Source of the DNA: Candidatus Magasanikbacteria bacterium GW2011_GWC2_37_14
GTDB lineage: Bacteria; Patescibacteriota; Patescibacteriia; Magasanikbacterales; UBA922
Assembly: GCA_000990355.1 (NCBI GenBank)
Contig: LBSX01000014.1
Coordinates: forward strand, 1 to 50,378
Reading direction: 5' to 3'
DNA length: 50,378 nt
The translations under genes were made by a program, and so were the position numbers. Shown piece by piece: positions 39,814-43,974 of this stretch (position 1 is its first letter; every line of letters starts with the position of its first letter). A model generated the notes under the pieces. That model was given only the letters and a program-made list of their open reading frames with translations, was not told the origin of the DNA and ran no database searches.

Positions 39814-39842
39814 TTGACAAATTCGTTAAAATGTGCTATGAT
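39814..39842 (+). promoter_or_regulatory. Sigma70-type promoter for the DGR variable-protein gene
   Basis: TTGACA (39814-39819), 17-nt spacer, TATGAT (39837-39842). Confidence 0.7.
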
Positions 39843-39884
39843 AATTTGTTAGTTCTTTTTAAGTTCCTGGTTTTCTTTTTGCTT

Positions 39885-39947
39885 TGTCATCGCGAGGCCG
39901 AAGGCCATGGCCATCCCAATGGGATTGCTTCGTTCCTCGTAATGACA
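39885..39947. repeat. Palindromic repeat in the 5' leader of the DGR target gene
   Basis: TGTCATCGCGAGGCCGAAGGCCATGGCCATCCCAATGGGATTGCTTCGTTCCTCGTAATGACA; termini TGTCAT/ATGACA. Confidence 0.7.
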
Positions 39948-40052
39948 TGTAGAAAGAAGGCCGGGATTACAATATCTCGGCAAAAGGGTGGTAAACCCCA
40001 ACCCGACATGGAGTCGGGTAAAGGCAAACCACACAGCTGGGAGGTGCGGAAC

Positions 40053-40847
40053 ATGGATCGCAAGTTTAAGGGATCGCAGAGCCGGCAGATCGAGAAACTG
40101 GTGGGTGACGTTCTTGCGTCGCTTGCTCCAGACAAGGATGAGCTTCAGGAGCGCGTTCTCGCTGCCCCCGAACGTTCCGCGTTGTTTCAGCAACGTGTGC
40201 GCGAGGTGTTGGTCGCGATGCTGGCGCGGTATTTCATCTCGCTCACGGACGAGGAGGCGTTTGCGTGGCTCATGGAAGATGCCGGGCAGGAGGAGCTGTA
40301 CGCGCGACAGATCATCACTGGTTGCCGCAAGGGCGCCAGGGAGCAAGGGTTCGCGGATAACGTGCCGTGCCACTACGCCGTTGAGGCAGGCGCGACGCTC
40401 AAGTTCACGATCCCCACACTGGGCTTGTGCGTGGATGACTTCAGGTACCTGCAGGGCTGGGCGTTCCCAGACACCCCGACCGAGCGCTGTCTCGTGTCCG
40501 GTGTCCCCACCGCGCTGCGCGAGGCTGCAAGCCAGAACATTACTACGCAGCTCCGGACGCTCGCGGCAGTGGAAGTCCACTGGGGCGTACCGACCGGCTT
40601 CTTCAGTCAGGAGCTTCTGCCGACCGTCTACACGGCGGGTGTCGCCCTCATGCACCACAAGGTCACCAAGCGTGACATGTTCAACGGCCTGTGGGTGCGC
40701 ACTGGCACCTGCATTGCGGGCGGGCGCCGGCTCCGTCTGGACTGGCGCGGTGGTCGGCTCGCCTGCGGCATCTGGCGCTGGGGTGCCGATGGCTTCCCGG
40801 GCCTCGCCGTCGCCGCTCTGGGGGTGACCAAGGCACTCGAGCACTAG
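40053..40847 (+). CDS. DGR variable (target) protein with C-terminal variable region, CLec-like end expected
   Basis: In-frame GC-rich ORF; start 40053 (or 40008) because the promoter -10 overlaps the longer ORF start; C-terminus CIAGGRRLRLDWRGGRLACGIWRWGADGFPGLAVAALGV aligns to the TR. Confidence 0.9.
   Translation: MDRKFKGSQSRQIEKLVGDVLASLAPDKDELQERVLAAPERSALFQQRVREVLVAMLARYFISLTDEEAFAWLMEDAGQEELYARQIITGCRKGAREQGFADNVPCHYAVEAGATLKFTIPTLGLCVDDFRYLQGWAFPDTPTERCLVSGVPTALREAASQNITTQLRTLAAVEVHWGVPTGFFSQELLPTVYTAGVALMHHKVTKRDMFNGLWVRTGTCIAGGRRLRLDWRGGRLACGIWRWGADGFPGLAVAALGVTKALEH
40711..40820 (+). repeat. DGR variable repeat (VR)
   Basis: Gapless alignment to TR 41221-41330: 25 of 29 TR adenines substituted, 1 of 81 non-adenines. 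Confidence 0.97.
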
Positions 40848-40892
40848 GGCTTTCGGCCCTGTCGTTCGGCACGTTGGTCGCTTCGGTTCTTT

Positions 40893-40925
40893 GGCCCTCG
40901 GTTCGCTTCGCGCGGATCGAGGGCC
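40893..40925 (+). terminator. Hairpin downstream of the variable-protein gene
   Basis: GGCCCTCG...CGAGGGCC. Confidence 0.65.
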
Positions 40926-41191
40926 TCTTCATTTATAAAATAAGTTTTTTTAAAGTAAAATTTTTGTTATAATATGTTTGGCTGCGTCGCCAGTTGCTTA
41001 TGTCTATGTCTGCCTGCTGGTAGGCAGGGATATAAGCCGGCAGTACAGGATATATACTCGCCCGAATATCTGCACTTATGGGTTCAGATAGTGTGTGTTT
41101 ATATATTAAATTTATATTCTTTACACCCCGTGCCATTCATTAACGCGCTCAAGGCGCGGCATTAGTTGTAGCTCGCGGAGTATTCCAAAGG

Positions 41192-41200
41192 TGGTATAAT
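41192..41200 (+). promoter_or_regulatory. Extended -10 promoter for TR RNA
   Basis: TGGTATAAT immediately 5' of TR homology; no good -35. Confidence 0.55.
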
Positions 41201-41220
41201 GGACAGTGTTTGGCATTTCT

Positions 41221-41330
41221 GCAATGCGGACGGCAACCGGCTCAATCTGAACTGGAACGATGGTCGGCTCAACTGCGACAACTGGAACTGGGATGACAAT
41301 GACAACCCGAACATCGCCGTCGCCGCTCTG
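41221..41330 (+). repeat. DGR template repeat (TR)
   Basis: AAC/AAT-rich codons in the same phase as VR (CNADGNRLNLNWNDGRLNCDNWNWDDNDNPNIAVAAL); 17-nt identical 3' end TCGCCGTCGCCGCTCTG (41314-41330 / 40804-40820). Confidence 0.97.
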
Positions 41331-41350
41331 ATGGTGTAAAGGTTTAAAAA

Positions 41351-41380
41351 AAAGATACTCAATTTGTTTGAGTATCTTTT
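41351..41380. terminator. Bidirectional hairpin between TR and avd
   Basis: AAAGATACTCAA-ATTTG-like loop-TTGAGTATCTTT, 12-bp perfect stem (41351-41362/41368-41379). Confidence 0.8.
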
Positions 41381-41391
41381 AAATGAGATAT

Positions 41392-41799
41392 TTATTTGTA
41401 AAAATTTTGAGTACTTTGAATCCATTTGCCTAGCATTCTTCCTGTGCTGGCAAGTTTTTGAGATAATTGTCCATATTTTTTAGCGTCCAATCCTTTTGCT
41501 TCCCACAGAAGTGTGACAAAAAATTTTAAGTTATCTAATTTTCTGCTTAACTCATTTAGAAAAATCAGCTTATCTTCGCGTTTAGTATATTTAGCGGTTA
41601 AAGTTATTTCTAAGATATTAATAAACATTTCATCTATTTTTATTCCCAAAGTGTGCCGCGTCAAGCGTGGTAAAAATAATAAAAAATTATGCCACAACAA
41701 ATAACACTCTTTGAACAAAACCAGAATGGGCAGATCATCACTCCGTTGGGGGGGGGTCTTAAAAGTATTCAGATTATTAGAAAGATCCAATTGATTCAT
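41392..41799 (-). CDS. DGR accessory variability determinant-like four-helix-bundle protein
   Basis: LPILVLFKECYLLWHNFLLFLPRLTRHTLGIKIDEMFINILEITLTAKYTKREDKLIFLNELSRKLDNLKFFVTLLWEAKGLDAKKYGQLSQKLASTGRMLGKWIQS; typical Avd layout. Confidence 0.85.
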   Translation of the reverse strand: MNQLDLSNNLNTFKTPPQRSDDLPILVLFKECYLLWHNFLLFLPRLTRHTLGIKIDEMFINILEITLTAKYTKREDKLIFLNELSRKLDNLKFFVTLLWEAKGLDAKKYGQLSQKLASTGRMLGKWIQSTQNFYK

Positions 41800-42816
41800 A
41801 CATATAATGATATTATCAATTTAGAAAATTTATGTTTAGCGTGGAAAGAATTTATTCTTGGTAGGAAAAAGAAAAATGATGTATTAAAATTTAGTGATAA
41901 TCTAATGGATAATATTGTAACACTTCACGAAGATTTGGCAAGTAAGATTTACCAACATGGTGGTTATGAAAATTTTTATGTTAATGACCCGAAACGTCGG
42001 CATATTCACAAAGCAGCTGTCTGTGACCGCTTGCTCCACCACGCCATTTACCGTATTTTGTATCCATTTTTTGATAGAACATTTATTGACAATTCATTTT
42101 CTTGTAGAAAAAATAAGGGACTGCATAAGGCCTTAAACAAGTTTAGAGAAATGTTTTGTAAAGTTAGTAAAAATAACCACCGTGCTTACTGGGTATTAAA
42201 GTGTGATATTAAAAAGTTTTTTGACAGTATCGATCACAAAATTTTATTAGATATTTTGAGTGAGTATATTTCAGATAAAGATGTTATATGGCTACTGGAG
42301 AATGTAGTTGAAAGTTATAGTACAACTCCGGCAACTCCCCTTGAACCCCTTCTTGGTAACAGGGGGACAACAGGCCTGCCACTCGGAAATTTAACCTCGC
42401 AGCTTTTTGCTAATGTTTTTATGAATGTATTTGATCAATTTGTAAAACATAAATTAAAAGTTAAGTATTATGTTCGCTACGCCGATGATTTTGTATTTTT
42501 ATCTAATGATAGACAATATTTAGAAAGTATAATACCTGTAATTCGCAATTTTTTAGTTGAAAAATTAAAATTAACTTTGCATCCTAATAAAATATTTTTG
42601 CAGACAATTACTTCGGGTATCGATTTTCTTGGCTGGAAGCATTTCGTTGGTCATCGTGTACTCCGCAAAACAACACGAAAAAGAATGCTGAGAAGAATTA
42701 AAGAGAACCATACAAATGAAACATTACAATCTTATCTGGGTTTGTTAAGCCACGGTAATGGTGGCAAGGTTAAAGAACAACTTTTAAATGAATATTGGTT
42801 TAATAAAAATTTGTAA
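41689..42816 (+). CDS. DGR-type reverse transcriptase
   Basis: KCDIKKFFDSIDH; TTGLPLGNLTSQLFANVFMN (DGR-type GxxxSQ); YYVRYADDFVFLS (YADD); IDFLGWKHF. True start uncertain (ATG 41689 or TTG 41791). Confidence 0.96.
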   Translation: MPQQITLFEQNQNGQIITPLGGGLKSIQIIRKIQLIHTYNDIINLENLCLAWKEFILGRKKKNDVLKFSDNLMDNIVTLHEDLASKIYQHGGYENFYVNDPKRRHIHKAAVCDRLLHHAIYRILYPFFDRTFIDNSFSCRKNKGLHKALNKFREMFCKVSKNNHRAYWVLKCDIKKFFDSIDHKILLDILSEYISDKDVIWLLENVVESYSTTPATPLEPLLGNRGTTGLPLGNLTSQLFANVFMNVFDQFVKHKLKVKYYVRYADDFVFLSNDRQYLESIIPVIRNFLVEKLKLTLHPNKIFLQTITSGIDFLGWKHFVGHRVLRKTTRKRMLRRIKENHTNETLQSYLGLLSHGNGGKVKEQLLNEYWFNKNL

Positions 42817-43608: not shown

Positions 43609-43974
43609 TCACTTTTGAGATTGTATCCAGCGTCTGAGTAGTTTGCCAACTTCATTTGTTAAAGAATAGATTTCTCTTGCTTTTTTTATGTCCAAATATT
43701 CTAAATCTTTTGAAAGAATTAAATAATACTTTACTTCTTCCAACGAAGTTAAAGCCATTGTATAGAAATGTAATCTATCTTTTTTGGTTTCGCGGTGAAA
43801 ACCCTCTGTTATATTAGCTGCTACAGAAACAGAAGCACGACGCATTTGAGAAATTAAAGCATAAAGTTCATCTTTAGGATATGTTTTAGTTATTTTGTAA
43901 ATATGTATTACCAGTTGGTGGGCTTTTTGCCAAGCGTTTAAATCAGTCCAATTTTTTACTAATACCATACTCAA
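43609..43974 (-). CDS. Four-helix-bundle protein, S23/IVS family
   Basis: LNAWQKAHQLVIHIYKITKTYPKDELYALISQMRRASVSVAANITEGFHRETKKDRLHFYTMALTSLEEVKYYLILSKDL. Confidence 0.92.
   Translation of the reverse strand: MSMVLVKNWTDLNAWQKAHQLVIHIYKITKTYPKDELYALISQMRRASVSVAANITEGFHRETKKDRLHFYTMALTSLEEVKYYLILSKDLEYLDIKKAREIYSLTNEVGKLLRRWIQSQK

Follow-up and report, generated by a model that had tools for sequence, protein, structure and literature searches.

A chromosomal diversity-generating retroelement in Patescibacteria with putatively phase-variable machinery and a structured 5′ leader predicted to pair with the 3′ side of the template repeat

The window, by which we mean the whole stretch of DNA analysed, comprised 50,378 nucleotides of contig LBSX01000014.1 from Candidatus Magasanikbacteria bacterium GW2011_GWC2_37_14 (assembly GCA_000990355.1). 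It carries a unit that reads, from left to right, as a target gene with the variable repeat (VR) at its end, an intergenic stretch, the template repeat (TR), the avd gene on the minus strand and a reverse transcriptase (RT) gene. The features of the unit are listed in Table 1.

Table 1. Features in and around the unit, by position in the window.
Feature	Position	Strand	Basis or remark
Promoter-like site for target, TTGACA-17-TATGAT	39814..39842	+	Consensus scan, 11/12; no evidence of function
Target gene, 264 aa, VR at C-terminus	40053..40847	+	ORF; GC 0.61-0.67
VR	40711..40820	+	Ungapped alignment; homology continues to about 40826
GC-rich 5-bp inverted repeat AGGGC-TTTCG-GCCCT, just 3′ of VR	40846..40860	+	Seen in window sequence; possible DGR hairpin
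Terminator-like hairpin after target, 14-bp stem	40893..40925	+	
Extended -10, TGnTATAAT (TG at 40965-40966), before TR RNA	40968..40973	+	Seen in sequence; similar TATAAT-like box there in relatives
Structured TR RNA leader	40985..41198	+	Start set from the -10 box; covarying helices in 62 consensus-type loci
Leader element TCTTTACACC, 5′ strand of TR-closing helix	41118..41127	+	Pairs with 41333-41342; covariation over 77 loci, z 13.3
TR	41221..41330	+	Ungapped alignment with VR; homology continues to about 41336
Tail element GGTGTAAAGG, directly 3′ of TR, 3′ strand of closing helix	41333..41342	+	Covariation with leader element
Hairpin with flanking A and T runs	41350..41380		Terminator-like for TR RNA (+) and avd (-); seen in sequence
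avd, 135 aa	41392..41799	-	Antisense, overlaps RT 5′ end by 111 nt; ATG 41797-41799
DGR reverse transcriptase, 375 aa	41689..42816	+	RVT_1 E = 8.8e-24; PHROG 1423 E = 1.3e-104
Poly-G tract (G9), inside RT and avd frames	41748..41756	+	Putative phase-variation switch; ON length for both genes
Promoter-like site for avd within RT gene, TTGCCA-16-TACAAT	41914..41941	-	Consensus scan, 10/12; no evidence of function

Judged at the sequence level, the locus is a chromosomal diversity-generating retroelement (DGR), as shown by adenine-specific differences between TR and VR, an RT of the DGR type, an Avd gene and a conserved gene order. The first-pass annotation had also read it as a DGR, and this was supported by the adenine-only pattern, the matches of RT to PHROG 1423 and of Avd to PHROG 3206 and DivGenRetAVD, and the conserved order. 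The host is a Magasanikbacteria-like member of the Patescibacteria, and the DGR is of the clade 2 lineage, a membership that rests on the host and on RT similarity and not on a position of the RT in the tree of Roux et al. The RT was matched in 67 of 147 genomes searched (the source genome and relatives), and the named relatives in the genome collection were nearly all Patescibacteria (Magasanik-, Yanofsky-, Kerfeld-, Uhr-, Nomura- and Kaiserbacteria, among others). A TR/VR pair in the same order was found in 32 of the 40 relative loci that were fetched, or 33 of 41 counting the window.

Realignment of TR with VR at an offset of 510, with no gaps, reproduced the counts given in the first-pass annotation: 25 of 29 TR adenines differed, compared with 1 of 81 other bases (C to G at 41234). 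Thus 25 of the 26 mismatches lay at TR adenines (P = 1.6e-19 for at least this number, hypergeometric), and the changes were not spread over all four bases. The adenine changes were 14 A to G, 7 A to C and 4 A to T. When the repeat was extended to 118 nt, ending at about 41336, 26 of 30 adenines and 2 of 88 other bases differed. A recount of AAC/AAT codons in the TR frame again gave 11. The second-best ungapped match to TR in the window had 64 mismatches (VR had 26), and a search of the source genome (1.10 Mb in 24 contigs, GC about 0.35) returned only this target and, as a second match, TR itself. The adenine bias extended to related loci, where 95 TR/VR pairs differed at 1618 of 2931 adenines (55%) and at 74 of 8702 other bases (0.9%). 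A 46-aa open reading frame in TR (41199-41339, ATG to TAA, preceded by GGTGGT) was taken as chance, as the in-frame TR reading frames of relatives vary in start and length.

The start of the target gene was supported by its L070 homologue, which is 64% identical over the full length and begins at the same Met. VR homology stops about 7 codons ahead of the target stop codon, a layout repeated in relatives. Profile searches found no Pfam, NCBIfam or PHROG family for the 264-aa protein, and its AlphaFold model (pLDDT 50.5, about 27 over VR) was too poor for a search for a C-type lectin fold. At 39880-39960, upstream of the target gene and past its promoter-like site, the short sequence CGCGAGGCCGAAGGCC...CCTCGTAATGACA resembles dispersed repeats. 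Targets were GC-rich relative to their own loci, with a GC3 of 0.64 versus 0.41 for the RT, and were higher in 84 of 90 loci. In the window and in loci L028-L067, in AT-rich genomes, the rise in GC begins at the target start and includes synonymous sites; RT and avd match the host. The RT of the window is nearest to that of L028 (75%); the loci that share the window's target and RNA type, L037, L041 and L046, have less similar RTs. Because RT similarity disagrees with target and RNA type in this way, cassettes of target and template may be exchanged separately from RT-avd units.

The RT motifs LGNLTSQ and YADD were invariant over 14 homologues. The Avd protein matched NCBIfam DivGenRetAVD (E = 1.5e-15; 57 bits, curated cut-off 80), PHROG 3206, "Avd protein of DGR" (E = 8.5e-15), and Pfam bAvd (38.2, cut-off 40); it fell below the curated NCBIfam and Pfam cut-offs, yet Avd was the top match in all three libraries. 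The consensus scan gave no convincing plus-strand promoter for the RT. The Avd start position was fixed in most loci. Opposite the avd ATG lies a His codon of the RT, which was CAT in 87 cases and CAC in 1, compared with 975 to 611 in the rest of the RT (p = 9e-17), and this codon bias indicates selection on the Avd ATG. About 0.8 kb past the RT, outside the conserved unit, 43609-43974 on the minus strand encodes a four-helix-bundle protein of the 23S rRNA-intervening-sequence type, a family related to Avd. The first-pass annotation did not mention the features that make the locus unusual: the antisense avd, the poly-G tract and the conserved RNA around TR.

The poly-G tract was compared over 112 distinct related loci. 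A simple-sequence repeat (SSR) was present at the avd/RT overlap in 101 of these, of which 94 were poly-G (7-15 nt), 6 dinucleotide and 1 tetranucleotide, with (GA)n and (ATTG)7 among the alternative units. For background, 762 kb of these loci outside the overlap held 13 G/C runs of at least 7. Exactly one of the three phases connects Avd to a start codon beyond the tract in 84 of 98 loci; of these 84, 25 are now ON and 59 OFF, where one third would be expected ON at random (p = 0.56). In 34 loci, the window included, no RT start lies beyond the tract; with the RT ON phase defined as the tract length giving the longest RT frame, the ON phases of RT and Avd agreed in 26 of 26 scorable loci. In the other 67 of the 101 loci the RT start lies downstream, and Avd alone is exposed to the tract. 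Tract length differed between close relatives (RT 75-90% identical). Each genome gave a single tract length, and with one genome per species no mixture of lengths within a population was seen. As in phase-variable genes of the SSR kind, a hypermutable repeat in the 5′ coding region sets the frame, and relatives differ in tract length, with both ON and OFF states present.

A second RT ATG at about 41725-41740 in the window, just before the tract, would be in frame at G10, and several relatives have the same arrangement. Through it the RT might be made in two phases of three, and Avd in one. This second ATG and the RT starts downstream of the tract both count against the phase-variation reading. 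Elsewhere in the source genome there are about 11 other G/C runs of at least 8 (L148-L158), several of them inside dispersed CCCCCTT...AAGGGGG repeats; in L148, a C10 lies where a secreted-enzyme-like reading frame breaks.

Viral loci provided a control for the SSR. No comparable repeat preceded the RT in seven phage DGR-type RT loci; one of these has a short (CAA)4 216 nt upstream. We also considered 80 viral-contig relatives, their viral status being that of IMG/VR, which may be wrong for short contigs. The nine nearest (RT at least 42% identical) had an antisense avd in 9 of 9 and an SSR in 2 of 9, whereas the SSR was present in 101 of the 112 genome-derived loci (Fisher p = 1.5e-5). The 71 more distant relatives had avd on the RT strand, or none was found, and had no SSR. 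The antisense avd is therefore characteristic of the clade as a whole, and the SSR chiefly of those members that come from genomes. Scarcity of the SSR in viral members would be expected if cells, and not phages, need mutation to stop.

We infer the DGR copying mechanism at this locus because its anatomy matches the mechanism known from Bordetella phage BPP-1. RT and Avd would reverse transcribe the TR RNA, adenines being copied with errors, and the cDNA would replace the target gene's 3′-terminal VR and so give variants of the 264-aa protein. Slipped-strand changes in the shared poly-G tract would shift Avd, and here the RT too, in and out of frame. A population would then contain mutating (ON) and frozen (OFF) cells, the window having the ON length. 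In BPP-1 tested in E. coli, loss of Avd brought activity to background and abolished homing (PMC12875486), and by analogy a switch of the Avd frame should switch the DGR. The tract, the frames, the conserved start and the mixture of ON and OFF states across species are direct observations; what we infer is that slipped-strand mispairing alters the tract within populations and that retrohoming stops in OFF cells. TR/VR divergence was the same in ON and OFF loci, with no extra TR/VR decay in the OFF loci. Switching, if real, would therefore be frequent on an evolutionary scale; equal divergence fits fast switching, and it also fits no effect of the tract.

Homopolymers can cause polymerase slippage, and the tract could accordingly act at the level of transcription or translation instead of DNA, allowing a low and constant amount of Avd at any DNA length. 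Such slippage would account for the random-looking phases and for the many loci that are out of frame without TR/VR decay. Against it, 7 loci have di- or tetranucleotide repeats at the tract site; GA or ATTG as the repeat unit fits replication slippage, since units of 2 and 4 slip in replication and are poor substrates for transcript slippage, and we regard this explanation as unlikely. Less probable again is an ordinary DGR with a poly-G tract that is neutral or structural, for instance a Gly/Pro run that the proteins tolerate or a structure formed by G-rich DNA, and that has no role in switching. The other long G runs of the source genome, several in dispersed repeats, lend this some plausibility, as does the fact that switching is deduced and not directly observed. 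The position of the tract is nonetheless conserved in 101 of 112 loci, with GA or ATTG substituting in some, and about 70% of loci have Avd out of frame, a state that would not be allowed if the tract were simply a tolerated in-frame stretch of amino acids. Moreover, 7 of the 9 viral-contig members of the clade lack the tract though they keep the antisense avd. DNA phase variation thus remains the preferred reading of the tract.

The RNA around TR was the second subject of comparison. A conserved leader of about 200 nt lies between the target terminator and TR, and over 62 loci its helices stay paired despite changes on both strands. One element of the leader, about 100 nt before TR, has as its partner the bases directly after TR. 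The pairing is of the type AAUGAAGA-ACU with AGU-UCUUCAUU in most loci and, in the window, of UCUUUACACC with GGUGUAAAGG. In the RNA type that the window shares with L037, L041 and L046, both strands are very different in letters and the pairing is kept. Leaders scored 17.3 with their own tails, compared with 13.4 (sd 0.30) when tails were permuted among the 77 loci; with one locus per distinct leader the permutation z was 11.7, a statistic in which shared ancestry remains. A free search for leader-tail pairing locus by locus was not significant for most loci, whereas the test at homologous positions was. In most relatives TR is followed on its 3′ side by a hairpin and T run, which in the window starts about 20 nt after TR. 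No Rfam family, RT-n included, matched the window or 13 relatives.

That the conserved bases are instead DNA signals (promoter, terminator, or repeat ends for cDNA integration) is the least probable of the alternatives: a -10 box and a terminator-like hairpin do stand on either side of the unit, and the end of TR/VR homology falls inside the tail, but the helices stay paired through two-sided changes (for example, 59-61 of 61 sequences pair at hairpin columns 103-106, using 3-5 types of pair) and leader and tail covary at a distance of about 215 nt. Under the RNA reading, the structured leader element 5′ of TR would pair with the bases directly 3′ of TR. The leader would thereby probably bring the RT-Avd binding and priming region to the TR end from the 5′ side and not the 3′ side. 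That the leader strand next to the TR end acts as a primer is a guess, and one we hold as slightly more doubtful than not.

Taken together, the comparisons point to a chromosomal DGR of Patescibacteria with phase-variable machinery and a 5′ structured leader paired to the 3′ side of TR, a reading to which we give a probability of roughly 0.8. The wider statement, that the cellular DGRs of Patescibacteria are phase-variable mutators, with one tract in two antisense genes, whose TR RNA has its primer side 5′ and a long-range helix to the 3′ end, we consider fairly likely, with less confidence than in the locus itself. The DGR signature is ordinary; the putative frame switch and the predicted RNA layout are the parts of interest, each backed by comparison over more than 70 loci.

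In the literature searched, which consisted largely of titles and abstracts and did not extend to the major DGR surveys, no link was found between DGRs and phase variation of the retroelement itself. Neither the frame switch nor the unusual template RNA was found described in these sources, which is not the same as their being absent from the literature, and the surveys (Paul 2017; Wu 2017) may mention an antisense avd. Each round of DGR activity erases the successes of earlier rounds, which raises the question of how a cell retains a variant that serves it well; on this point a 2022 review goes no further than to suggest that hypermutation may be suppressed when conditions are stable (PMC8867640). 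A stochastic switch of the Avd frame, if true, would be a concrete answer, in that a lineage could search among protein variants and then freeze a good one, and two classical mechanisms of variation would be joined in one device. Tract length could be read in existing long-read metagenomes. The 5′ RNA architecture provides a second arrangement for studying the priming of DGR cDNA synthesis.

Several known systems resemble the locus in part. Like the Rfam RT-n motifs, such as RT-15, annotated ahead of a DGR-like RT in Pseudomonas phage Cruim01, it has a structured RNA beside an RT gene, and it differs from them in that neither the window nor the 13 relatives match any RT-n family. Roux et al. 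(2021) found DGR clade 2 to be restricted to Patescibacteria, with CPR clade 2 targets that have no recognised domains or transmembrane segment (PMC8144416). The locus agrees with that description in its host group and in a target that has no recognised domain or transmembrane segment; the same study mentions neither Avd nor GC content. With BPP-1 (mtd-avd-TR-brt) it shares adenine-specific transfer from TR to VR, a C-terminal VR, an RT with Avd, and a GC-rich end of TR and VR. In BPP-1, however, avd is 5′ of TR and a structured priming spacer lies between TR and brt, that is, 3′ of TR (PMC12875486; PMC8867640), whereas in the present locus an antisense avd separates TR from the RT, and the structured RNA lies on the 5′ side of TR. 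In place of a BPP-1-type structured spacer, TR is followed by the terminator-like hairpin and then by the antisense avd. The tract is like the poly-G contingency loci of Neisseria and Campylobacter, with a repeat in the 5′ coding region, one length of three in frame, and lengths that vary between relatives. It is unlike them in that the product being switched would be a mutator, and in that a single tract, shared by overlapping genes on opposite strands, can set the two frames together.
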